64,000 nucleotides of DNA from Croceivirga sp. GTDB taxonomy: Bacteria; Bacteroidota; Bacteroidia; Flavobacteriales; Flavobacteriaceae. The notes below the pieces were generated by a model. The model worked only from the letters and a program-made list of their open reading frames with translations, did not search any database and had not been told where the DNA came from. Numbering within the stretch: the stretch's first letter is position 1; each line of letters begins with the position of its first letter. The DNA lies in contig JANQRG010000046.1 of the NCBI GenBank assembly GCA_028284665.1, positions 62,001-126,000 of the forward strand, given 5' to 3'. The translations under genes and the position numbers were made by a program. Positions 23,974 through 35,231 of this stretch are shown piece by piece.

Positions 23974-24005
23974 TTGGTTTATAAACACCAGCCGTCGTAC
24001 TTTTG
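23974..24005 (+). promoter_or_regulatory. menD promoter TTG-N21-TACTTTTG
   Basis: TTG at 23974-23976 and TACTTTTG at 23998-24005 fit the Bacteroidota promoter consensus. The -7 element ends six bases before the menD ATG, so the message would have almost no leader. Confidence 0.6.
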
Positions 24006-24011
24006 CGCTTC

Positions 24012-25763
24012 ATGGAATACTCAAACATACCTTCCGCAAGGAATTTAGTGTTAGCCTGCAAAAAAAGGCAGATCAAACATATCGTAATTTCCCCGGGTTC
24101 TCGTAACGCTCCCCTTACCTTAAGTTTTGCCAACGATCCTTTTTTTGAGTGTTTTAGCATAGTAGATGAACGAAGCGCAGCTTTTTTTGCTATGGGTATT
24201 GCCCAGCAAAACAATAGGCCTGTGGTGGTGGTGTGTACTTCCGGAAGTGCATTGTTAAATTATTATCCGGCGATCGCAGAAGCCTTTTACAGTGCCATTC
24301 CTGTGGTGGCCATATCCGCTGATCGACCTCCGTATAAAATTGATATCGGTGATGGTCAAACCATTCGACAAGACCTTGTATTTGACAGACACATAGGCTA
24401 TTCGGCAAATTTAAAATTGGATATCGCCCATGCCGTAGAAACCATCGGAGAATTTAGCCCTGAGCTCTTAAGTAGTACCCAAGAAGAGGTGGAAAGGTTT
24501 AACCTGCAGGAAGTGGACAAGGCGATGTGTGTAGCGTTTGAAGAGAAATTACCAGTGCATATTAATATTCCCTTTGAAGAGCCCTTATATGGTAAAGTTT
24601 CGTGGAACGAATCCCCAACAGAAAATGTCTCCAGACCTATAGCTTCTTCCAAAAAAGAACCTGTTCAAATTCCGGAAGCCAGGAATTCCTGGAATACAGC
24701 GCAGCGCAAGATGGTTCTGGTAGGGGTAAATAACCCGGAAAGCATCAACCCGGCATTTCTTCACATTCTGGCAGAGGATCCTTCGGTTCTGGTTTTTACA
24801 GAAACCACATCCAATTTACATCACCCCAACTTTTTTCCCAGTATAGACAGTATAATTTTTCCTGTGGAAAAGGCAGCGGACACAAATGATCTGTTCAAAT
24901 TACTGCAGCCTGATATTTTATTGACTTTTGGAGGGCTAATTGTATCGAAAAAAGTGAAGGCCTTCTTAAGAAAGTATAGGCCAAAACAGCATTGGCATGT
25001 GCACGAATACAAAGCATACGATACGTACCTTGCCCTTTCCGAGCATTTTAAAACGGATGCGAATACCTTCCTAAGTGGTTTACTTTCCGGCACTAAACCA
25101 ATAAAAAGTGAGTACCGAACTTTCTGGGATACGTACAAAAGCAAGTATATAAAACGAAGAAAGCAGTATTTAGAGAAAATCGTTTTTTCAGACTTCAAAG
25201 CTTTCGATACTATTCTCCGGAGTATTCCCCAAGGTCATCAACTCCAACTTTCCAACAGTTCCACAGTACGATATGCCCAGCTCTTTGATATACATCCGAG
25301 CATAGCAGTATTTTGTAACCGGGGTACTAGTGGTATTGATGGTAGTACCTCCACGGCGGTTGGGGCGGCATATTATTCCAAAAACCCGACCTTACTTATT
25401 ACCGGTGATTTGAGTTTTTTCTATGATAGCAACGCGTTTTGGAATCGATATGTCAGACCTGATTTTCGGGTCATATTGATCAATAATTCCGGGGGCGGCA
25501 TTTTTAGAATTTTACCTGGATTTGACGGTTCTGAACTTTTTGCCAAATACTTCGAAACCACACATCAACTAAGTGCTGCTCATCTATGCGAGCAGTTCGG
25601 CTTACACTATCATTCTGCCTGTAATCATAAGGAGTTGGAGAATGCACTTCAAGATTTTTATTTACCGTCTGATCGGGCAAAAGTGTTGGAAGTTTTTACC
25701 CCACGAGAAGAGAACAACAAAATTTTGCTTGATTACTTTGATTTCATATCTTCGGACTATTGA
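24012..25763 (+). CDS. menD: 2-succinyl-5-enolpyruvyl-6-hydroxy-3-cyclohexene-1-carboxylate synthase
   Basis: A ThDP-dependent enzyme of 583 residues that joins isochorismate and 2-oxoglutarate. The N-terminal PYR domain carries VISPGSRNAPL (near residue 27) and the activating-glutamate segment DERSAAFFAMG (near 50). The C-terminal PP domain has the ThDP/Mg motif GDLSFFYDSNAFWN (near 464) and NNSGGGIFRILPG. The ATG at 24012 is chosen over the TTG at 24003, which lies inside the promoter element. Its 2-oxoglutarate co-substrate is the same compound made by the hydroxyproline operon, though no regulatory link is evident. Confidence 0.95.
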   Translation: MEYSNIPSARNLVLACKKRQIKHIVISPGSRNAPLTLSFANDPFFECFSIVDERSAAFFAMGIAQQNNRPVVVVCTSGSALLNYYPAIAEAFYSAIPVVAISADRPPYKIDIGDGQTIRQDLVFDRHIGYSANLKLDIAHAVETIGEFSPELLSSTQEEVERFNLQEVDKAMCVAFEEKLPVHINIPFEEPLYGKVSWNESPTENVSRPIASSKKEPVQIPEARNSWNTAQRKMVLVGVNNPESINPAFLHILAEDPSVLVFTETTSNLHHPNFFPSIDSIIFPVEKAADTNDLFKLLQPDILLTFGGLIVSKKVKAFLRKYRPKQHWHVHEYKAYDTYLALSEHFKTDANTFLSGLLSGTKPIKSEYRTFWDTYKSKYIKRRKQYLEKIVFSDFKAFDTILRSIPQGHQLQLSNSSTVRYAQLFDIHPSIAVFCNRGTSGIDGSTSTAVGAAYYSKNPTLLITGDLSFFYDSNAFWNRYVRPDFRVILINNSGGGIFRILPGFDGSELFAKYFETTHQLSAAHLCEQFGLHYHSACNHKELENALQDFYLPSDRAKVLEVFTPREENNKILLDYFDFISSDY

Positions 25764-25789
25764 TAACTTATAAAAGAGCACTAACGAAA

Positions 25790-26131
25790 ATGAGTAAAAG
25801 AGATGAATTAATCGAAAAGTATGCGGCGGACATCAAAGAAAAGTTTGGAGAAACTCCAGATATGGATTTTCTTACCAAAGTCGCAATTGGTTTAGGACCG
25901 GCTATCTACAATCTTGACGCTTCTAAGGTTTCAGGGAGCGATAACAAAGAATTAGAAACGGTTAAGAACAATTTCTTGATCAAAAAGCTAGGACTTGCTG
26001 ATGGCCCCGAATTGATGGATGCGATAAACAGCGTAATCGATAAATATGGAAGAGGGGATAAAAACAAGCATAGAGCGGTAATCTATTATCAGTTGGCAAA
26101 GCATTTCGGTAAAGAATCCGTTTACAATTAA
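25790..26131 (+). CDS. DUF2853 family protein
   Basis: A 113-residue, fully helical cytoplasmic protein matching DUF2853. It begins MSKRDELIEKYAADIKEKFG and has the conserved AIGLGPAIYNLDASKVSGSD segment. The ATG at 25790 is used rather than the TTG at 25760, which overlaps menD. It lies 26 bp after menD and is followed by a strong terminator. Its placement after menD recurs in flavobacteria as I recall, but no function is known. Confidence 0.85.
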   Translation: MSKRDELIEKYAADIKEKFGETPDMDFLTKVAIGLGPAIYNLDASKVSGSDNKELETVKNNFLIKKLGLADGPELMDAINSVIDKYGRGDKNKHRAVIYYQLAKHFGKESVYN

Positions 26132-26157
26132 TAGCCCCTGTCACAAAAAGTAAGATA

Positions 26158-26181
26158 AACCGTGCTTAGCACGGTTTTTTC
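26158..26181 (+). terminator. Intrinsic terminator after DUF2853
   Basis: AACCGTGC and GCACGGTT form an 8-bp stem with a 3-nt loop (TTA) followed by a T-run. It closes the thioesterase-menF-menD-DUF2853 transcript. Confidence 0.88.
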
Positions 26182-26198
26182 TTTTTAATATCCTTGTA

Positions 26199-27038
26199 AT
26201 GATTAAGATCGGAGATTTTAATGAACTAAGTGTGCTACGAAGCACAAGTGTGGGGATATTCTTAGGAGATGCTGAAGGAACAGAAATTCTGTTGCCCAAC
26301 AAATACGTTCCCAAAGGAATAAAACGCGATGAAAAAATTCAGGTATTCTGTTATTTGGATCATCAGGAAAGACCAGTCGCCACGACAATAACACCTTTGA
26401 TCAAAAGGGATGGTTTTGCGTATTTACACTGTGTTGCTACCAGCGCTGTTGGCGCATTTGTAGATTGGGGATTGGAAAAGCATTTGTTTGTGCCTTTTAG
26501 AGAACAACGCGAACGAATGATGGTCGGGAAAGCCTACGTTGTGCATTGCTATTTGGACGAGAAAAGCTTCAGATTAACAGCCTCCTCCAGAATTGAAAAC
26601 TATCTGAGAACTTTTGATCAGCGTTTGTCCGACAACGAAGAGGTAACGCTTTTAATTTACCGAAAGACAGAATTAGGTTGGGAAGTTATAATCAACAACG
26701 CCTTTAAAGGATTGCTGTATTTTGATGATGTTTTTAAAAAGATTGGAATCGGGGACGTTACAAAGGGTTACATAAAAAAGGTAAGAGAAGATGGCAAGGT
26801 AGATGTAACACTTCAGCCTATGGGATTTAAAATGTTGGGAGCGACCGCTCAGTATGTCCTTCAGAAACTAAAGGAAAGCGGTGGTTTTCTTCCATTACAT
26901 GATAAGTCCTCTCCCGAAGAGATTAAGGACCAACTCGAGCTCAGTAAAAAGCTATTCAAAAAAGCGATAGGAGTACTGTATAAAGCACGTAAAATAGTGT
27001 TGAAACCCGAAGGCATCTATCTGGTAGCTAGCGAATAG
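26199..27038 (+). CDS. CvfB-like S1 RNA-binding domain protein
   Basis: A 279-residue protein of the CvfB/YitL type, built of tandem S1-like OB folds and a C-terminal winged-helix domain. The first S1 unit (about residues 1-65) contains LGDAEGTEILLPNKYVP, the second (70-130) has GAFVDWGLEKHLFVPFREQ, and the third (145-215) has GLLYFDDVFKKIGIGD. The C-terminal part (about 220-279) resembles the CvfB winged helix, with SSPEEIKDQLELSKKLFKKAIG. CvfB proteins bind RNA and affect gene expression in Firmicutes; a role in flavobacteria is not established. It starts 18 bp after the terminator and lacks an obvious promoter of its own. Confidence 0.82.
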   Translation: MIKIGDFNELSVLRSTSVGIFLGDAEGTEILLPNKYVPKGIKRDEKIQVFCYLDHQERPVATTITPLIKRDGFAYLHCVATSAVGAFVDWGLEKHLFVPFREQRERMMVGKAYVVHCYLDEKSFRLTASSRIENYLRTFDQRLSDNEEVTLLIYRKTELGWEVIINNAFKGLLYFDDVFKKIGIGDVTKGYIKKVREDGKVDVTLQPMGFKMLGATAQYVLQKLKESGGFLPLHDKSSPEEIKDQLELSKKLFKKAIGVLYKARKIVLKPEGIYLVASE

Positions 27039-27172
27039 GACAAATCGTCAAAGCACTTGGTTTTTAGTATGGTTTTTTTCTTTGGTCAAAACCATTACAT
27101 TTGCAATTATTGGGTTCCCTAAGTAATTGGTTTTTATCTTCTTACTTCATTAACAATTAAATTTTCGAAAGC

Positions 27173-27763
27173 ATGCCATTCATAGAAGAAAATGATTTGT
27201 TAGATCTACACAAGGATATCGAAAAGTCCCAAATCATTAACGAAAGATTGCTGGATCAGATAAAGTTCAAGAACAAAGACCTAAGGAAGTTTAAGATTCA
27301 GCGTAATGTTTTTATAGGAATTACGGCTTTGTTGTTAGTTAGTGCTTTGGCCATCACTTCTTTTACGGCTGGGGTAAGTACTTCAAAGGGCAATCAAAAT
27401 GTTTTGTTTTCCATAGATAGCCTGGAGGCGATAAAAACACGAATGGATAACCTTAGGCTGCAAAACCAGGAATTAAGTCTGGTAAAGGAGTTTTACCTGG
27501 CGAAACAATTTTTGGAAAAGGAAAAGATTTATTCCGTACAGGTAAAATCTTTTGTGGATAACAATATTACACTAGCCTCTGAAGCTTTAACCAACACCCT
27601 GTTTGTTAAGACCAATCCTTATTACGCCTACTCCCTTGGAACTTTCGAAACCTTAGAGGAAGCACAATCTTTCAGATTACAGTTGGTGAGCATAGGATTT
27701 GAAGATGCTTTTGTAGCATCTTATCAGGACGGAAAGCGCCTTAAAATTGAATCTGCCGAATAA
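27173..27763 (+). CDS. Membrane protein with coiled coil and C-terminal SPOR-like domain
   Basis: A 196-residue single-pass protein. Residues 1-42 are charged and helical, a transmembrane helix spans about 44-66, a coiled coil follows (about 80-118), and the C-terminal 75 residues (IYSVQVKSF ... YYAYSLGTFETLEEAQSFRLQL ... SYQDGKRL) resemble a SPOR-type alpha/beta domain, which in other proteins binds denuded septal peptidoglycan. A TACATTTG element at 27096-27103 may be its promoter. It ends with TAA directly followed, in the same frame, by the TTG start of menA. The SPOR assignment rests on pattern only. Confidence 0.68.
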   Translation: MPFIEENDLLDLHKDIEKSQIINERLLDQIKFKNKDLRKFKIQRNVFIGITALLLVSALAITSFTAGVSTSKGNQNVLFSIDSLEAIKTRMDNLRLQNQELSLVKEFYLAKQFLEKEKIYSVQVKSFVDNNITLASEALTNTLFVKTNPYYAYSLGTFETLEEAQSFRLQLVSIGFEDAFVASYQDGKRLKIESAE

Positions 27764-28672
27764 TTGAACAGCATTAAAACTTGGCTACGTGCGGCAAGAC
27801 TGCGCACACTTCCCTTATCGATTTCCGGAGTAGTAGTCGGGACAGCGTTGGCGAACCATGCTACCTACCAGGATTGGTTTACGTTTTTACTTTGCATTTT
27901 AGTAACTGTCGGATTTCAGGTTACTTCTAATTTTGCCAATGATTATGGCGATGGCATCAAAGGAACAGATGGGAAAGAGCGCATTGGACCTGTTCGCGCA
28001 TTTCAGAGCGGGGCGCTATCTGCCATTGAACTCAAAAGAGGAATTGTAATAAGCGCAACGATTAGTCTTTTACTCGTAATAGTACTTTTAGTACACGCAT
28101 TCGGTAGGGAACAGCTACCGCTTCTCTTCCTCTTTTTCATATTAGGGATATTCAGTGTTTGGGCCGCTATACGATATACGGTAGGAACCAACGCCTATGG
28201 ATACATTGGCCTGGGTGATGTATTTGTGTTTCTATTCTTTGGATTATTGGCGGTATTGGGAACTAAATTTTTGTATACCCTACAATTGACGTATTGGGAT
28301 GTACTTCCGGCTATTGGCATTGGAGCATTATGTGTTGGCGTATTGAATCTTAACAATTTAAGGGATGTGGTCTCCGACAAAAAGCATGGTAAAAACACCA
28401 TGGTGGTCCGTATGGGTTTTGCTAGCGGAAAAAGGTATCATACGTTTCTGGTAGTGCTAAGCTTCTTGTGTTTTTTGGTGTATAGTAGTGCTCAAATACC
28501 TACTCTTTTTGGGTTGGTCCATATACTATTGTATGTGCCAATTTTTCTTCATTTACGTAAAGTGTGGAACACTGATAATCCCTCCGAATTGGACCCTGAA
28601 TTAAAGAAATTAGCCTTAAGCACATTCTTCCTCTCCCTTTGGTTTTACATATCGATCAATTATTTTTTGTAA
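27764..28672 (+). CDS. menA: 1,4-dihydroxy-2-naphthoate polyprenyltransferase
   Basis: A 302-residue UbiA-family integral membrane prenyltransferase that attaches the polyprenyl chain to DHNA. The first aspartate-rich motif is NFANDYGDGIKGTD (near residue 52) and the second is NNLRDVVSDKKHGKNT (near 188), both with the usual Mg-diphosphate aspartates. About eight to nine transmembrane helices are seen. No ATG is near the N-terminus; the TTG at 27764 places WLRAARLRTLPLS at the position typical of MenA. That TTG follows the upstream TAA in frame with no spacing. Confidence 0.93.
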   Translation: MNSIKTWLRAARLRTLPLSISGVVVGTALANHATYQDWFTFLLCILVTVGFQVTSNFANDYGDGIKGTDGKERIGPVRAFQSGALSAIELKRGIVISATISLLLVIVLLVHAFGREQLPLLFLFFILGIFSVWAAIRYTVGTNAYGYIGLGDVFVFLFFGLLAVLGTKFLYTLQLTYWDVLPAIGIGALCVGVLNLNNLRDVVSDKKHGKNTMVVRMGFASGKRYHTFLVVLSFLCFLVYSSAQIPTLFGLVHILLYVPIFLHLRKVWNTDNPSELDPELKKLALSTFFLSLWFYISINYFL

Positions 28673-28706
28673 TTTTGAGTGTTAAAAATTTCTAAACTAA
28701 GCCATT

Positions 28707-29462
28707 TTGGAACACCCCATCAAAATTCTTATAGTTGAGGATAATGTCATCATAGCCGATGATATGCAGTCTATGCTGGAAGAAATTGGTTATGAAGTGG
28801 TTGACAATGTGATCGTTTACGAGCAGGCCATAGAGGTGCTTAAAAACAACCATGTAGATCTTGTTTTGATTGACATTATTTTGGCCTCAGATAAAACTGG
28901 GATTGATTTAGGTAAACATATCCGGCAGAACTACAACATTCCTTTCATTTTTGTAACCTCAAACTCAGATAAAGCTACTGTTGAAAATGCAAAAACGGTT
29001 AAACCAGACGGTTATTTGGTAAAACCTTTTGAGCAACAAGACTTATACACTTCTATTGAAATTGCGTTATCCAATTTTAATTATTCCAAGAAAAGTGTCA
29101 GTACCGATATTGCGGAAAGTGGAGAAGAAAGCTTTACCTCCAATTCTGTTTTAAAGGATTCCATTTTTGTCAAAAAGCAGCACTTGTATTACCGTATCCA
29201 ATTTGGAGATATACAGTTTATCAAAGCGGATAATGTTTACCTGGAGGTGAACACGGTGGATAAAAAATTCCTGGTACGTTCTCCTTTGAAGGACTACTTG
29301 GAGAAATTACCAAAGAACAAGTTTTTTAGGGCCCATAAATCCTATATCGTTAATGTAGATCACATAGATGCCATTAACTCTAAGGATATTATGATAAATA
29401 ACACGCTAATCCCAATTTCAAAGGACTTCAAGGAATTCATCATATCCTCAATGAATTCGTAG
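28707..29462 (+). CDS. LytTR-family response regulator
   Basis: A 251-residue regulator. The receiver domain (1-120) has the acidic pair Glu11/Asp12, phosphoacceptor Asp56 (LIDIILAS), Thr84 and Lys106 (LVKPF). The LytTR DNA-binding domain (about 155-250) has the FIKADNVYLEV and FRAHKSYIVNVDHI segments. Such domains bind pairs of roughly 9-bp direct repeats spaced one or two helical turns apart. The in-frame TAA at 28698 leaves only ATT or TTG as starts; TTG at 28707 is used. A HisKA_2 kinase follows after 640 bp, and three sets of 21-bp-spaced direct repeats lie in that gap, which are strong candidate targets. Confidence 0.92.
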   Translation: MEHPIKILIVEDNVIIADDMQSMLEEIGYEVVDNVIVYEQAIEVLKNNHVDLVLIDIILASDKTGIDLGKHIRQNYNIPFIFVTSNSDKATVENAKTVKPDGYLVKPFEQQDLYTSIEIALSNFNYSKKSVSTDIAESGEESFTSNSVLKDSIFVKKQHLYYRIQFGDIQFIKADNVYLEVNTVDKKFLVRSPLKDYLEKLPKNKFFRAHKSYIVNVDHIDAINSKDIMINNTLIPISKDFKEFIISSMNS

Positions 29463-29492
29463 AGAGGACATGGGTTAATTAGCATTCGAAAC

Positions 29493-29524
29493 GAAAAAGT
29501 GCCGTAATTACGGCACTTTTTTAT
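29493..29524 (+). terminator. Intrinsic terminator after LytTR regulator
   Basis: AAAAGTGCCGTAA and TTACGGCACTTTT form a near-continuous palindromic stem followed by further T residues. It separates the regulator gene from the downstream regulatory modules. Confidence 0.88.
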
Positions 29525-29548
29525 TGTCCTCAACTAGTATTCTAGACA

Positions 29549-29614
29549 TTCACCACAGTTTAAAAGAGCTTCACAACAATAGTTTCTCTCAGAATATCTT
29601 CATGAGTAGATTTG
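29549..29614 (+). promoter_or_regulatory. Module 1: 21-bp-spaced direct repeats plus promoter (candidate LytTR site)
   Basis: TTCACCACA (29549-29557) and TTCACAACA (29570-29578) are direct repeats with a 12-bp spacer. After exactly 28 bp comes TAGATTTG (29607-29614), a match to TAnnTTTG. There is no proper -33 element at normal spacing, as expected of an activator-dependent promoter. The same layout occurs twice more in this gap. Confidence 0.75.
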
Positions 29615-29618
29615 AAGT

Positions 29619-29715
29619 GTTTAAAAATGATATCAAATTGTAAAGGATAATTTTTTCATTTTCATATAGTGTTCTCGTAAAAGGGCCTTGTTTTCGGACA
29701 AGGCTCTTTGTTTTT
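29619..29715 (+). ncRNA. Candidate small RNA 1 (about 95 nt)
   Basis: This is the segment from just downstream of the module 1 -7 element to a strong intrinsic terminator. No ORF of note and no gene follow before the terminator. The 5' half is A/U-rich and the 3' end is the 11-bp terminator hairpin. The transcription start is inferred from the promoter. The function is unknown; a LytTR-controlled regulatory RNA is proposed. Confidence 0.5.
29680..29715 (+). terminator. Terminator of candidate sRNA 1
   Basis: AAAGGGCCTTG (29680-29690) pairs with CAAGGCTCTTT (29699-29709) over 11 bp, with one G-U pair and an 8-nt loop, followed by GTTTTT. Confidence 0.85.
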
Positions 29716-29794
29716 AAATACCTTCTTGCTTACCCCTTTCCATGAAATGCACAAAACCACGATAAAATGCATCTGTGCATCGGTAGACCCTCAG

Positions 29795-29860
29795 TTCACA
29801 ACAAAAAAATACACTTTCACAACAAAACAGCAACTTGCACCTGCTTTCATTCTATTTTTG
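29795..29860 (+). promoter_or_regulatory. Module 2: 21-bp-spaced direct repeats plus promoter (candidate LytTR site)
   Basis: Two identical TTCACAACA repeats at 29795-29803 and 29816-29824 have a 12-bp spacer. A 28-bp gap leads to TATTTTTG (29853-29860). The geometry is the same, to the base, as modules 1 and 3. Confidence 0.78.
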
Positions 29861-29864
29861 AATC

Positions 29865-29943
29865 GGACATTGTTGCCCCCCAAATCTTACATCCATATAA
29901 TGTCTTAAAAGACTGTACAAAGATTAAGTGCAGTCTTTTTTTT
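29865..29943 (+). ncRNA. Candidate small RNA 2 (about 78 nt) with C-rich loop
   Basis: From the inferred start just after the module 2 -7 element to a long terminator. The 5' part can fold with GACATT (29866-29871) pairing AATGTC (29899-29904), exposing a 27-nt loop that contains CCCCCC. The rest is the 12-bp terminator stem. An exposed C-run would be suited to pairing with G-rich mRNA segments. Transcript existence and function are inferred. Confidence 0.5.
29907..29943 (+). terminator. Terminator of candidate sRNA 2
   Basis: AAAAGACTGTAC (29907-29918) pairs with GTGCAGTCTTTT (29928-29939), giving a 12-bp stem with one G-U pair and a 9-nt loop, followed by a T-run. Confidence 0.88.
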
Positions 29944-30009
29944 AATTGTGGAACATCTTTACGGTAATGAATACATTGTCGTACAGGTAGTAGTAGGATT
30001 TTTGCAATT

Positions 30010-30075
30010 TTCACCACTTAAGCCACTGGATTTACAACAAAAATTAATTACGCAGCCAAGAGGATACTAATTTTG
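30010..30075 (+). promoter_or_regulatory. Module 3: direct repeats plus promoter of the histidine kinase gene
   Basis: TTCACCACT (30010-30018) and TTTACAACA (30031-30039) have a 12-bp spacer, and TAATTTTG (30068-30075) follows after 28 bp. It lies 30 bp upstream of the kinase ATG, so the regulator probably controls its own partner kinase. Confidence 0.75.
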
Positions 30076-30105
30076 TAATAAAAAAAGAAAGACTGCATTT
30101 TTAAA

Positions 30106-32103
30106 ATGGATTCGTTCCAAAAAATAGGACATCAAGTAATGGCTATGCCAAAAAGAAAAACGCTGATTTTTTTTGTATTCCTTTCTCTCGGATTAGGAGT
30201 ACTACAGGCGCAATTTGTCCAGGAGGAAGAAGATCCTTTCAAAACATTCCAGGAAACCAACGGCGTAGCAAATAAATTAGACTTTTTCTATGAAACCCCA
30301 AACCGATATAAAAATAGCTCGGCGTATGATTGGTTAGAGGTTGTGAAAGTATATCTGAATACCGCGGAAAAATCAAAAGACACTCTGGGTATTCAGGTGT
30401 ATAGACTGATGCAAGCACAATTGTATAATGATATCGCGGATCACTATAAAAGCATCGCTATCGCCAACGAACTTTTCAAGGAGGTAGATAGTTTGGATAG
30501 TACTTCCGTTAAGTTAATCCTACAGCTTTTAGACCTCAATTACGGAAAGCTCCAAATGTATGACAAGCAAATTGAGATCCGCGAGCAAATGCAGGCGCTC
30601 GGCATTACCCAAAGCGTTCCATTTTATGATATTTATGCGAATATGGGGCTATACCGGAAGGCTATGGAGCAATATATACTTGCCGTTAAGCCTACCATCC
30701 CGGACAATGATCATTTAGCATTGGCCAAACACCACAATACTGTGGGGTACTACCTTTACCTTGATAAATCCCCGGAAACCGCTACTAACGAATTTAAAAA
30801 GGCTTTAGGATTTTTGGAAGTTTATATCAACGACATTTCCAAGCAAAAATCCGATAAAGATATTTTTGAAAGTGAAGCACTAAAGGCCGAGATCGAAGGA
30901 AACATTGGCAAATGTCATGTGCAACTTAAAGAGTACCCGGAAGCGGTCCCTCTTTTGACCAATAGCCTAAGTGTTTTAGAAGAGCTCAATAATGGAAGCT
31001 ATAAAAAGCAAATTATTGACAACACCTTAAATCTGGCAGAAGCACATTTAAAACTGGAAAATGACGAAACTGCGAAGGAGCTTTTGGATAATGAATTTGA
31101 AGGTATAACCATTAAGCAAGAAATCAAGAGAAATAAACTTTTGGCAGACTACCATGATAAGCAAGAAAGCTTCAGAAGTAGCTCAAGCTTTTACAAGCGG
31201 AACGAATACATTATGGATTCCCTAAAAGCCAATGAGAGATCTATTTTGCAACAACAATTGGTAGCCATAGTGGGCACCTCGGATCTGGAAAATTCAAGGC
31301 GACTTATCAACGAGCAAAAATTGGCCAACGAAAAAATTCGAAGTGAAATACAGGCAAAGGACGAAAGGATAAACCTGGTCATTATTTCGTTGATTTTTAC
31401 ATTACTGGGCTTCATTGGGTTGGTATATGCTTATCTTAAAAGTATCAAGAATCAACGCCTTATTGCTGAGCAAAATCATATCATTGAAAACTCACTGAAA
31501 GAGAAAGATTCGCTGTTAAAGGAAATTCATCATCGTGTGAAGAACAACCTGCAAATGGTCTCAAGTTTATTGAGCCTTCAAACCCGAAACACGAAAAGCA
31601 AAGCGGCAATTGAAGCTCTTGAAGAAGGAAAAAGCAGGGTGAAAGCAATGGCCCTGATCCATCAAAAGCTGTATCAAAATGAGGATCTTTCGGTGATTGA
31701 GATGCAAGGATATATAGAGAGTCTGATTAACAGTGTGCAATCCGTGTACAAAAAGGGAGGTCATAATATCAGCATAACGGTAGATGCTGAAGGGACTGAA
31801 CTGGACATCGACAGAGCCATTCCGTTCGGGCTTATTTTGAATGAGTTGGTGTCTAATACCTTTAAATACGCATTTCCGGAAAGTGATGATAATGGAAAAA
31901 TCTACATCCATTTAAGGAAGAATGGTGATGAAGGTTATTTCGAGTATTCGGATAACGGAGTAGGTTTACCCGAAGATACCGACGAACGTACCAGTAATTC
32001 CATGGGGCTACGGTTAATCAATCGGCTTGTGAATCAGTTACAATCCAAGTTAAATGTTGATCGGGCAAACGAAGGAGTTCGTTTCTGGTTTAATTTTAAC
32101 TAA
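30106..32103 (+). CDS. TPR sensor histidine kinase, HisKA_2 type
   Basis: A 665-residue kinase. A signal-like hydrophobic segment lies at about residues 17-34 (an alternative ATG at 30145 would start directly at MPKRKTLIFF). Periplasmic TPR-like helical repeats run from about 60 to 390, a transmembrane helix lies at about 423-442, and then comes the HisKA_2 domain with EIHHRVKNNLQM (His475/His476). The HATPase follows with NELVSNTFKYAFP (N box), YSDNGVGLP (G1) and SMGLRLINRL (G2). HisKA_2 kinases commonly pair with LytTR or similar regulators. The regulator gene upstream and the shared cis sites make it the partner by inference. Confidence 0.9.
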   Translation: MDSFQKIGHQVMAMPKRKTLIFFVFLSLGLGVLQAQFVQEEEDPFKTFQETNGVANKLDFFYETPNRYKNSSAYDWLEVVKVYLNTAEKSKDTLGIQVYRLMQAQLYNDIADHYKSIAIANELFKEVDSLDSTSVKLILQLLDLNYGKLQMYDKQIEIREQMQALGITQSVPFYDIYANMGLYRKAMEQYILAVKPTIPDNDHLALAKHHNTVGYYLYLDKSPETATNEFKKALGFLEVYINDISKQKSDKDIFESEALKAEIEGNIGKCHVQLKEYPEAVPLLTNSLSVLEELNNGSYKKQIIDNTLNLAEAHLKLENDETAKELLDNEFEGITIKQEIKRNKLLADYHDKQESFRSSSSFYKRNEYIMDSLKANERSILQQQLVAIVGTSDLENSRRLINEQKLANEKIRSEIQAKDERINLVIISLIFTLLGFIGLVYAYLKSIKNQRLIAEQNHIIENSLKEKDSLLKEIHHRVKNNLQMVSSLLSLQTRNTKSKAAIEALEEGKSRVKAMALIHQKLYQNEDLSVIEMQGYIESLINSVQSVYKKGGHNISITVDAEGTELDIDRAIPFGLILNELVSNTFKYAFPESDDNGKIYIHLRKNGDEGYFEYSDNGVGLPEDTDERTSNSMGLRLINRLVNQLQSKLNVDRANEGVRFWFNFN

Positions 32104-32187
32104 GTTGGTCCTTCGTATTGGGAGGGTGTTCAAAGCATCAACTTCTTTCCACCTTACCTGTAGCCATACATTACGTTGTAATAGTGG

Positions 32188-32195
32188 TATTTTTG
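32188..32195 (+). promoter_or_regulatory. menC promoter -7 element TATTTTTG
   Basis: TATTTTTG ends six bases before the menC ATG (32202). The mRNA would have a minimal leader, as with menD. Confidence 0.5.
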
Positions 32196-32201
32196 CGATC
32201 A

Positions 32202-33254
32202 ATGCAAGCAAGGTATTCAAAGTATAATCTCAATTTTAAAAGGCCGAGTGGAACCTCCAGGGGTATCTTAAAAGAAAAGGAAACCTGGTTTATTGTACTT
32301 CGTGAGGGGAACCGTTTCGGGATTGGAGAATGTGGACTGCTACGGGGTTTAAGTGTAGATGACAGACCCGATTATGAGCGGCAATTGCAATGGACGTGCG
32401 AGAATATCCACTTAGATAAGCAAGAACTTCTGAAGAAATTAGGGGATTTTCCATCCATAGAATTTGGACTGGAACAAGCATTATTGTCACTTGAGGCCAA
32501 AAACCCCTTTGAACTCTTTCCCTCCCAATTCACGACATCGGAAGCGGCTATTCCTATAAACGGTCTTATTTGGATGGGAGAAGAGTCATTCATGTTGGAC
32601 CAAATTCAACAACGTTTGGAACAGGGATTCCGATGTATTAAAATGAAGATCGGAGCCATCGATTTTGCAGTCGAATTGAAGCTCCTAAAAAATATCAGAA
32701 AGCAATTCTCGGAAAAGGAGTTGGTGTTACGCGTTGACGCAAACGGCGCTTTTTCGCGCTCAAGAGCCCTGGCGGTCCTAAATCAATTGGCAGAATTAGG
32801 GATACATTCCATTGAACAGCCTATTCCAACCCTGCAATGGAAAGCAATGGCCGATCTGTGTCGAAAAACTCCTGTTCCCATTGCACTGGATGAAGAATTG
32901 ATTGGGATCCATAACACAATGGAAAGAAAGGAGTTGTTGCAACTCGTTCGTCCGCAATATATCATTTTAAAACCCAGCTTACTTGGTGGATATACCTCTT
33001 GCGAGGAATGGATCGCCATCGCAGAGGAGCTTGGAATAGGATGGTGGGTCACCAGTGCGCTGGAAAGTAATGTGGGGTTAAATGCTATTGCCCAATGGAC
33101 CTTTACATTGAACAATACGATGCCGCAAGGGCTTGGTACAGGAAGCCTGTTTACCAACAATTTTACGAGCCCGCTGGAAGTGGAAAAAGGAAATCTATAT
33201 TATAGAAAACACCTATCTTGGCAGCACGATATAATCAAGCAACTATGTATATAG
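32202..33254 (+). CDS. menC: o-Succinylbenzoate synthase
   Basis: An enolase-superfamily enzyme of 350 residues that dehydrates SHCHC to o-succinylbenzoate. The catalytic KMK pair is in RCIKMKIGA (near residue 147). The Mg ligands are Asp in RVDANGAF, Glu in SIEQPIP and Asp in LDEELIG, and the second catalytic Lys is in ILKPSLLGG. The ATG at 32202, right after the promoter, is taken; a longer frame from 32118 would carry an untypical N-terminus. The neighbours menE and menA support OSBS over dipeptide epimerase. It overlaps the CPBP gene by 10 bp. Confidence 0.92.
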   Translation: MQARYSKYNLNFKRPSGTSRGILKEKETWFIVLREGNRFGIGECGLLRGLSVDDRPDYERQLQWTCENIHLDKQELLKKLGDFPSIEFGLEQALLSLEAKNPFELFPSQFTTSEAAIPINGLIWMGEESFMLDQIQQRLEQGFRCIKMKIGAIDFAVELKLLKNIRKQFSEKELVLRVDANGAFSRSRALAVLNQLAELGIHSIEQPIPTLQWKAMADLCRKTPVPIALDEELIGIHNTMERKELLQLVRPQYIILKPSLLGGYTSCEEWIAIAEELGIGWWVTSALESNVGLNAIAQWTFTLNNTMPQGLGTGSLFTNNFTSPLEVEKGNLYYRKHLSWQHDIIKQLCI

Positions 33255-34189
33255 AACAGGGCTACCGAGGTGATATAGGTTTGTGGAAGTTTTTTATCAT
33301 TCCTACATTATTTGTGGGTTATGTGGCCTTTAACGCAGTAGCCATGTACTTATCTCCCATGGATACCACGGCCATGATGAACACCATGATCGAACAACTG
33401 GGATCTTCGCTAACGCTAATTTTTTTACTCCTCCCTTTTGCCGTTGGACTTTTGGTGGTAATCGGTTGGACGTATCTGGTACACCCGCAGCCACTAACTG
33501 CTTTAACAACCTCTCGCAAAAAAGTGGACTGGAAACGTATTTTTTACGCCTTTTTTCTTTGGGGAGGGATCACCGTACTTTTTACCCTCGGGGATGTCTT
33601 TGCCTCCCCTGACGACTACGTTTGGAATTTTGATTTGAATAAGTTTTTGGTACTGGCGATAATAGCGATACTTCTTATCCCTTTGCAAACCAGTTTTGAG
33701 GAATACCTTTTTCGAGGTCATCTCATGCAGGGACTTGGATTATTGGCAAAGAACAGATGGGTACCGTTAGTGGTTACTTCGATCCTATTTGGACTGTTAC
33801 ATGTGGCGAATCCCGAAGTGGAAAAGCTGGGCTATGGTATTATGGTGTATTACATTGGTACTGGATTTTTTTTGGGGATAATGACACTAATGGATGAAGG
33901 GCTGGAATTGGCTTTGGGATTCCATGCAGCAAATAATCTGATCACAGCTTTGTTAGTTACCGCAGATTGGACCGCCTTTCAAACAGACTCGCTTTATCGA
34001 AATGTTGCTGAACCAACTTTGGGTTGGGATGTGATCATCCCCGTATTTGTGGTATTTCCAATATTGTTATTCATCTTTAGTAAAAAATACCGCTGGACCA
34101 ATTGGAAAGAGCGTTTATCCGGGAAAGTATTGACGAAAGAACAATTTGTTGCTTTGCAAAATGAGGATGCACCCGCAGTTCAAACTTAA
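33245..34189 (+). CDS. CPBP-family intramembrane metalloprotease
   Basis: A 314-residue polytopic membrane protein of the CPBP (Abi/Rce1) family. The catalytic motifs are present: EEYLFRG (Glu-Glu-x3-Arg), a second-helix His in LLHVANPEV and the FHAANN motif. About eight hydrophobic helices are seen. The ATG at 33245 is used (an in-frame TTG at 33218 lies deeper inside menC). It overlaps menC by 10 bp and menE by 29 bp, so it belongs to the menaquinone operon, as I recall for other flavobacteria. A role in menaquinone synthesis is not established. Confidence 0.87.
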   Translation: MYIEQGYRGDIGLWKFFIIPTLFVGYVAFNAVAMYLSPMDTTAMMNTMIEQLGSSLTLIFLLLPFAVGLLVVIGWTYLVHPQPLTALTTSRKKVDWKRIFYAFFLWGGITVLFTLGDVFASPDDYVWNFDLNKFLVLAIIAILLIPLQTSFEEYLFRGHLMQGLGLLAKNRWVPLVVTSILFGLLHVANPEVEKLGYGIMVYYIGTGFFLGIMTLMDEGLELALGFHAANNLITALLVTADWTAFQTDSLYRNVAEPTLGWDVIIPVFVVFPILLFIFSKKYRWTNWKERLSGKVLTKEQFVALQNEDAPAVQT

Positions 34190-35231
34190 CGGCTATAGTT
34201 ATAACAACGAAACCTTAAGAGAGGTTGCCACTACCTTATTTAGAGATGGAAAACCCTATGAACAAGCGATCGGTGATTTTTTGCAGCATTGGTTGAATAC
34301 CTCAAAGACAATTGCCGTAAGCACTTCTGGCTCTACGGGGTCACCTAAGAAGATCTCCTTGAAAAAGGAATACATGATCAATTCTGCCCTGGCTACGGGA
34401 AGCTTCCTGAATATTAATCCTGGAGATTCCGCGCTCTTATGTCTTTCTGCTGAATTTATCGCCGGCAAGATGATGCTGGTCAGAGCCCTGGTACTCGGAT
34501 TGGATTTAGATACTGTTGCACCTACTTCCAAACCTTTACAATCGCTCTCGAAATCATATGATTTCTGTGCTATGGTACCTTTACAGGCACAGAACTCCCT
34601 TCCTGATCTAAATAGCGTCAAAACCCTTATCCTTGGTGGTGCTCCGGTATCCTCCGGACTGGCGCAGGAACTAAAAGCCCTACATACCAATATTTATGAA
34701 ACCTATGGGATGACGGAGACCGTTTCCCATATAGGTTTAAAACAAATTACTTCGGAAGGCTTACTTGAAAATTCTAGCTACTTCCAAACCCTTCCGAATG
34801 TTAGTATCGCTGTAGATAATAGAGACTGCCTGGTGATAACTGCACCAAGGGTAAGCGATAAAAAAATTGTGACCAATGATCTGGTAAGATTAAAGGATCC
34901 TACTCGTTTTACGTGGTTAGGGAGGTATGACAATATTATCAATTCGGGGGGAATCAAATTGATTCCGGAAGAAATAGAAGCAAAGCTGGCCGCTAGCCTT
35001 AATCACCGATTCTTTATCGCAGGAGTACCGGATGCCGAACTTGGCGAAAAAGTAGTCCTGTTTGTCGAAGGGCGACAAGATGGACAACTGCTATTGGAAA
35101 AGTTGAAAGCGAACAAGGCGCTTACCCGATTTGAAATTCCCAAAGAAGTGGTGACGGTAGTAACGTTTAAAGAAACCAAAAACGGTAAAGTAGACCGTAT
35201 GGCGACACAGAAATCTTTAGGGAAAACCTAA
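34161..35231 (+). CDS. menE: o-Succinylbenzoate-CoA ligase, short form
   Basis: A 356-residue ANL-family adenylate-forming ligase activating o-succinylbenzoate. The P-loop is STSGSTGSPKKISL (near residue 55), the A5 motif is YGMTETVSHIG (near 180), the hinge aspartate is in WLGRYDNIINSGGIKLIPEEIE (split here around the hinge), and the A10 lysine is in KNGKVDR near the C-terminus. It is much shorter than the usual roughly 450-500 residues because the N-terminal subdomain is reduced, as in other Bacteroidota. ATGs at 34161 and 34167 are both possible. Confidence 0.9.
   Translation: MRMHPQFKLNGYSYNNETLREVATTLFRDGKPYEQAIGDFLQHWLNTSKTIAVSTSGSTGSPKKISLKKEYMINSALATGSFLNINPGDSALLCLSAEFIAGKMMLVRALVLGLDLDTVAPTSKPLQSLSKSYDFCAMVPLQAQNSLPDLNSVKTLILGGAPVSSGLAQELKALHTNIYETYGMTETVSHIGLKQITSEGLLENSSYFQTLPNVSIAVDNRDCLVITAPRVSDKKIVTNDLVRLKDPTRFTWLGRYDNIINSGGIKLIPEEIEAKLAASLNHRFFIAGVPDAELGEKVVLFVEGRQDGQLLLEKLKANKALTRFEIPKEVVTVVTFKETKNGKVDRMATQKSLGKT

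Follow-up and report, generated by a model that had tools for sequence, protein, structure and literature searches.

Regulators of the LytTR type act at paired direct repeats of about 9 bp that are separated by a 12-13 bp spacer and lie just upstream of the core promoter, and sigma promoters of Bacteroidota carry a -7 element with the consensus TAnnTTTG. LytTR-driven regulatory RNAs are already known in Firmicutes, from agr, whose RNAIII is about 0.5 kb long, and from VirR, which is also of the LytTR type; LuxO of Vibrio is a sigma-54 dependent response regulator. In Staphylococcus aureus, AgrA is described as driving both the promoter of its own operon, P2, and the RNAIII promoter, P3 (PMC8228455). 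VirR of Clostridium perfringens works through pairs of direct repeats that precede promoters, and it controls the VR-RNA gene (PMC2838878); in Vibrio several sibling sRNAs, the Qrr RNAs, have a common conserved pairing region and one response regulator, LuxO (PMC3262071). Among flavobacterial sRNAs, deletion of Rfp18 in Flavobacterium psychrophilum lowers the mRNA of two metalloproteases (PMC9723704). Our search of the open-access literature found no system combining a LytTR regulator with an sRNA for Bacteroidota or flavobacteria.

The locus described here lies in a 64-kb window, meaning the whole stretch of DNA analysed, and has three putative promoter modules between a LytTR response regulator and a histidine kinase (Table 1). 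As in the published account of agr, a LytTR response regulator, a kinase and a candidate regulatory RNA are encoded together, with predicted feedback on the own operon and an RNA effector (PMC8228455); the AgrA P2 oligonucleotide given in that source has, by our own reading, two 9-bp repeats 12 bp apart, although its half-site sequence differs from that of the modules. Unlike agr, the locus would use short multicopy sRNAs instead of a single RNAIII, and it has a HisKA_2 TPR kinase and a Bacteroidota -7 element. It resembles VirR/VirS in having a response regulator, paired direct repeats and a regulatory RNA gene under apparent control, but the spacing of VirR repeats is 7-8 nt as defined in PMC2838878, and the RNA and targets differ. 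The arrangement of sibling sRNAs with a common pairing core under one response regulator recalls Qrr (PMC3262071), although LuxO belongs to a different regulator class and the sRNA, the targets and the phylum are unrelated. Rfp18 was considered as a possible counterpart of sRNA1 and rejected, since its predicted pairing through a third stem-loop, as published, does not fit an RNA with an unstructured core and one terminator hairpin; the two are set apart by description (PMC9723704).

The reading we favor, with a probability of roughly three in four, is that the adjacent LytTR regulator activates all three modules, which would produce the kinase and two sRNAs, and that sRNA1 represses translation of a CAP-domain lipoprotein. 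As far as sequence can tell, the comparative case for the parts of this circuit (modules, terminators, conservation, co-occurrence, copy number and complementarity) is strong; the phosphorelay, DNA binding, transcription, repression and the signal are steps that we infer.

Table 1. Features of the regulator-kinase region, with positions counted from the first base of the window.
Feature	Position	Strand	Basis and remarks
LytTR-type response regulator (receiver + LytTR domain), presumed activator	28707..29462	+	Pfam Response_reg 1.7e-21, LytTR 2.8e-18
Terminator hairpin of the regulator gene	29493..29522	+	13-pair stem, T run
Module 1, putative sRNA1 promoter	29549..29614	+	TTCACCACA-N12-TTCACAACA-N28-TAGATTTG; 35.6 bits in the module model
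Putative sRNA1	29620..29716	+	About 97 nt, predicted ends; start 5-6 nt past the -7 element; terminator hairpin at end
sRNA1 ultraconserved 26-nt core, predicted pairing region	29653..29678	+	Core matches in genomes of the family; flanking columns decay
sRNA1 terminator hairpin	29680..29709	+	6 of 13 pairs covary among 20 chosen aligned copies
Module 2, putative sRNA2 promoter	29795..29860	+	TTCACAACA-N12-TTCACAACA-N28-TATTTTTG; 41.3 bits
Putative sRNA2	29866..29943	+	About 78 nt, predicted ends; conserved CCCAAATCTTA core at 29879-29889
sRNA2 terminator hairpin	29907..29939	+	T run; compensatory change at 9 of 12 consensus pairs in 16 chosen sequences
Module 3, putative kinase promoter	30010..30075	+	TTCACCACT-N12-TTTACAACA-N28-TAATTTTG; 36.8 bits
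TPR-HisKA_2-HATPase histidine kinase, presumed partner of the regulator	30106..32103	+	Pfam HisKA_2 6.4e-27

The initial annotation had placed a LytTR regulator and a HisKA_2 kinase on either side of the gap, and Pfam bore out both: the Response_reg and LytTR domains of the regulator score above the curated cut-offs, and the kinase has TPR, HisKA_2 and HATPase_c domains. To this locus we compared 85 related ones, consisting of the best 80 of 282 from a scan of genome contigs (regulators 87-98% identical) and five further loci. In each of the 85, the regulator is followed, across a gap of 324-1404 nt, by a downstream HisKA_2 kinase homologue with an identity of 41-97% over the aligned part. Under relaxed scoring with the 28-bp spacing, the gaps of the best 80 of the 282 loci hold one module in 5 cases, two in 59 and three in 16. 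Among 73 stretches that span 12 kb or more, counting the window, all have homologues of menD, menA and menC near the system, and 66 have one of menE. Within the window, the regulator-kinase system sits among menaquinone genes (24003-35231).

The three modules were recovered at exactly the positions first reported for them. The repeat pairs start at 29549/29570, 29795/29816 and 30010/30031 and match TTYACMACW-N12-TTYACMACW without mismatch, and the -7 elements, at 29607, 29853 and 30068, each lie 28 bp past the second repeat. All three have a TAnnTTTG element and the layout of LytTR-type sites, namely paired repeats of about 9 bp with a 12 bp spacer ahead of the -7 element. Even with up to two mismatches allowed, they are the sole matches to the repeat-pair pattern in the window, and in dinucleotide shuffles of the window the mean was 0.16 matches, with three reached in none of 100. 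When the regulator-kinase gaps of 86 sequences, the window among them, were measured with no preset spacing, 326 strong half-sites gave 127 pairs with starts 21 bp apart and only 3 pairs at the runner-up distance within 60 bp; TAnnTTTG occurred 28 bp past a half-site 94 times and 49 bp past (28 plus one repeat unit) 93 times, against 2 for the runner-up. With 27, 28 or 29 bp permitted, 183 of 186 modules in these gaps have the 28-bp spacing. The rigid 21-bp/28-bp geometry claimed for the window is thus also the dominant one in its relatives, where modules recur at corresponding places in the same gap while the sequence between them varies. Given this conservation and the shuffles, it is extremely improbable that the modules are chance matches or decayed, functionless repeats, a view for which we found no support; the initial annotation had likewise judged chance an unlikely source. 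Among 135 sRNA1 copies (see below), the seventh base of the -7 element is T in 76%, and its last base is A in 60% and G in 38%, so that most copies are off consensus at that last position.

A strong intrinsic terminator follows module 1, and another follows module 2, each ahead of the next module; a simple terminator scan picks up just the first of the two. Because a terminator of its own comes after each of modules 1 and 2, module 3 alone, whose end is 30 nt from the kinase ATG, would be the kinase promoter, and modules 1 and 2 appear to be promoters of the short non-coding RNAs sRNA1 and sRNA2 instead. The proposal that the modules are activator sites of the adjacent regulator therefore survives in part: their conservation and rigid geometry and the co-occurrence of regulator and core fit LytTR-dependent promoters, but the sRNAs had been missed, and a single module of the three precedes the kinase. 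Putative sRNA1 is short and has a promoter-like module and an intrinsic terminator, a layout also seen in its homologues. It was judged non-coding by eye; an ATG at any point between -25 and +65 occurs in 75 of 199 copies. Fold z-scores against shuffles are -4.6 for sRNA1 and -4.8 for sRNA2. No Rfam family reached its gathering score in 29400-30200 (the best match had 23.6 bits, where the gathering score is 48), and the matches to SSRC34_2 and other families, being far under threshold, were taken as chance.

Many loci of the Croceivirga, Croceitalea and Eudoraea types show a predicted transcript behind module 2 that has the CCCAAATCTTA core and a terminator. Loci of the Muricauda type have no evident terminator at this place, and the leader of the kinase follows module 2 at once, an arrangement that favors an alternative in which all three modules promote the kinase or long leader RNAs, the hairpins are attenuators and the core acts in cis only. 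This alternative is improbable, however, since the terminators of both sRNAs show covariation and since the core and its module also occur away from regulator and kinase, for example by menB: among 125 short stretches with the 22-nt core, 33 match menB and 27 match the regulator. We found no target for sRNA2. CCMAAATCT was tried as a widespread leader motif and is unsupported in the window, with 2 matches against 2.72 expected. As a separate observation, a motif resembling CCAAATCT, in the orientation of the sRNA2 core, is frequent in the leaders of CAP genes from regulator-less genomes (L359, L367, L368, L371, L374 and others).

A search of 299 Flavobacteriaceae genomes with the 26-nt core pattern (up to 3 mismatches) gave 142 matches in 49 genomes, representing 42 of 236 genera, and none with the reversed pattern. 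Two to five matches were present in 47 of these genomes and one in the other two. Across the phylum, the 24-nt core (up to 2 mismatches) was found in 6 of 395 genomes, 41 of which belong to the family, and all 6 lie within the family. The regulator was detected at E <= 1e-80 in 58 of the 299 genomes, and the 49 with a regulator 79-100% identical are exactly the 49 core-bearing genomes, so that the core accompanies a close orthologue in 49 of 49 cases and is found in 0 of the 250 others; the nine genomes with a regulator 58-75% identical have no core at up to 3 mismatches. Of the 142 matches, 139 were examined first, 121 of them exact, and a module at the right distance precedes 135 of the 139, compared with 0.36% of shuffled upstream sequences. 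Three of the four module-less matches (L166, L176 and L240) are gene starts on the opposite strand, with an earlier in-frame ATG at L166, and the remaining three of the 142, each with 3 mismatches, are CAP gene starts. The fourth module-less match, L241, has two mismatches and no obvious gene start. The 135 module-bearing copies are distributed as two or more in 46 genomes and one in three. Judged by sequence alone, sRNA1 is a multicopy family of sibling sRNAs whose copies share the core and the putative regulator site.

Among 199 distinct copies chosen for having the exact 24-nt core, conservation is 82-98% in a region that extends from 4 nt upstream of this core to 7 nt downstream of it, and drops beyond. 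The exact 22-nt core TTTTCATTTTCATATAGTGTTC is inside the gap in 74 of the best 80 of the 282 loci and absent from the other six (L036-L039, L077 and L109). Where a module lies 50-130 nt past the regulator, the core is right behind it in 79 of 80 such sequences. From core-bearing genomes, 11 regulator stretches were picked for having no core hit nearby; the exact core is absent from 10 and a module is present in 8. In the genome from which the window comes, a second sRNA1 copy (C22:306654) adjoins menB. A second unit of module and sRNA1 close to the first, as would result from recent duplication, was seen at L072, L079, L080, L116 and L122.

The initial annotation had proposed a genome search for the module. 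A sequence-only model built from 47 modules gave four high scorers in the whole genome, the three sites of the window and the menB-side sRNA1 copy (34.5-41.3 bits), followed by a drop to 26.8 bits. Two weaker sites have the exact geometry. One (C45:19999) precedes a response-regulator gene beside a different regulator-like match (C45:18920) that spans the LytTR part, and the other (L386, C46:77995) starts 85 nt before a 59-aa reading frame (MKAYKIKSL...). The module geometry is therefore probably not private to the adjacent regulator but a common trait of LytTR promoters here, so that it is somewhat uncertain which regulator acts where. The same site on C45, together with 40 matches to the regulator in the genome at E <= 0.001, some of which may rest on the receiver domain alone, would suit binding of the modules by another LytTR regulator, or several, instead of the adjacent one. 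We regard this as unlikely, with a small yet real chance, in view of the exact co-occurrence of the core with close orthologues of the adjacent regulator and of the modules that directly adjoin that regulator in related loci. On C45 (L388, L391 and L392), module-like sites were also seen before response-regulator, sugar-nucleotide dehydrogenase-like and epimerase-like genes (named by eye), and the cluster near C45:18920 is possibly an exopolysaccharide cluster with a LytTR regulator of its own.

For targets of sRNA1, the 49 core-bearing genomes were searched with a 17-nt complement of part of the core (up to 2 mismatches). There is no clear overall excess of complementary sites in this search: about 135 of the 226 hits are sRNA copies, which leaves about 91 against 82 for the reversed pattern. 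From at least 59 listed non-sRNA sites still to be examined, 40 were read, the ten one-mismatch sites first, and together with five known loci 45 sites were inspected, one of which (L188) belongs to an sRNA copy. Of the 45 sites, 14 have an ATG that opens a reading frame no shorter than 100 aa and preceded by an in-frame stop. In 11 of these 14 the product is the same orthologous lipoprotein, which is about 158 aa long and has a CAP domain (PF00188, one member scoring 3.7e-13). The other three are an M23 peptidase (PF01551) and two exported or TonB-receptor proteins assigned by eye; the rest of the 45 sites lie inside genes or at no gene start. Six further sites included two (L347 and L350) that begin signal-peptide-like proteins.

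The CAP lipoprotein is present in all 49 core-bearing genomes at E <= 1e-15. Over -40 to +20 of its start in 30 genomes, predicted pairing with the core averages -25.4 kcal/mol compared with -11.0 for shuffled cores; 28 of the 30 starts do better than each of the 200 shuffles, another does better than 198, and the last was scored from the wrong start (-22.6 from the right one). In a wider comparison (-60 to +40; 48 sRNA-bearing genomes, G168 being left out for want of a reading frame), pairing of the CAP start with the core is at least as strong as -18.1 kcal/mol in 41 of 48 genomes and in 0 of 30 comparison loci, the best of which reaches -12.4 (Mann-Whitney p = 4.6e-12, with related genomes treated as independent). 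The comparison loci, 24 from regulator-less genomes and 6 with a diverged regulator, have starts placed according to the homology match, possibly with an error of some residues, and some may be paralogues because they are only 33-45% identical to the query. As background, 726 gene starts in the neighborhood of the regulator were scored in 40 related loci, and none pairs better than -19.0. The sRNA1 core is thus strongly and recurrently complementary to CAP starts, from which we infer repression of the CAP mRNA. In the genome of the window, the CAP pairing is only -18.4 kcal/mol, a value equaled by 3 of the 726 background starts. At up to 2 mismatches there are 27 complementary sites in it, including the two sRNA copies, whereas the reversed pattern gives 16; the sites are mostly inside genes or off starts, and that genome offers no convincing target beyond the weak CAP pairing.

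In 7 of the 48 sRNA-bearing genomes the CAP pairing is weaker than -14 and the core is unchanged. Such constancy, greater than a drifting target needs, could be understood if the core were fixed by protein binding, as in a decoy or sponge RNA, and the CAP-start match were chance or something else; the sRNA2 core CCCAAATCT also resembles, in the same sense, leader motifs before other genes. We consider this unlikely. The CAP mRNA carries the complement of the core and not the same sequence, so a single-strand binding site would not explain the match, and the pairing sits on the start codon and tolerates changes that keep G-U pairs.

The start of porX (the T9SS regulator, NCBIfam T9SS_RR_PorX) in the genome of the window pairs with the core at -19.1 kcal/mol, yet porX was rejected as a conserved target. 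Its orthologues average -11.3 in 30 of the 49 sRNA-bearing genomes and -8.9 in 30 comparison genomes, a slight difference (p = 0.004), and just 3 of the 30 sRNA-bearing genomes have a start better than -17. Upstream of the CAP start, L266, L267 and L277 contain an additional stretch of the GAGAACAC or GAGAATCC type together with a CCCCATT motif; this could be a second pairing site.

In the circuit that we favor, a signal would act through the TPR/HisKA_2 kinase to cause phosphorylation of the LytTR regulator, two LytTR domains of which would occupy the 9-bp direct repeats two helical turns apart, at predicted centers near -67 and -46, and the bound regulator would recruit RNA polymerase to the TAnnTTTG -7 element. 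Module 3 would give positive feedback on the kinase, and modules 1 and 2 would produce the two short regulatory RNAs. sRNA1 would be made from several copies, nearly all with a module and an intrinsic terminator of their own, usually one by the regulator and others elsewhere (in the genome of the window, by menB). Its invariant core, just 5' of the terminator, is predicted to pair with translation-start regions of type AGAACACUAUAUGAAAAUGA and to repress translation by covering the start codon, that of the CAP lipoprotein mRNA in many genera and possibly those of further envelope-protein mRNAs. Bacteroidota are described as lacking Shine-Dalgarno sequences and as tuning initiation by nucleotides and structure near the start codon (PMC6847099), which makes direct masking of the start codon plausible.

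A broader reading, to which we give somewhat less than an even chance, is that a Flavobacteriaceae lineage has a two-component/sibling-sRNA circuit built like agr and Qrr from unrelated parts. Its invariant 24-26-nt core would be a general antisense to AGAACACUAUAUGAAAAUGA-type starts of exported lipoproteins and other envelope proteins, allowing a coordinated translational shut-off without Shine-Dalgarno sequences, and more diverged regulators would keep the module layout with different sRNAs. If true, the proposed circuit would add an sRNA family with a core invariant over some 42 sampled genera, a promoter rule for predicting the regulons that LytTR regulators control in the group, a start-codon target directly testable by compensatory mutation, and a route to sRNA repression of mRNAs without Shine-Dalgarno sequences.

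Downstream of the diverged regulators (58-75% identical), modules with the 28-bp spacing were found in 7 of 9 loci, weakly in L246 and L248; L250 has a single module and L249 only a weak match with 29 bp. Several of these loci have predicted short terminated transcripts, all without the core. At L247, where the regulator is 73% identical, four modules lie at about +30, +260, +476 and +693 past the regulator stop, and there are apparently three short terminated RNAs that share a different sequence.
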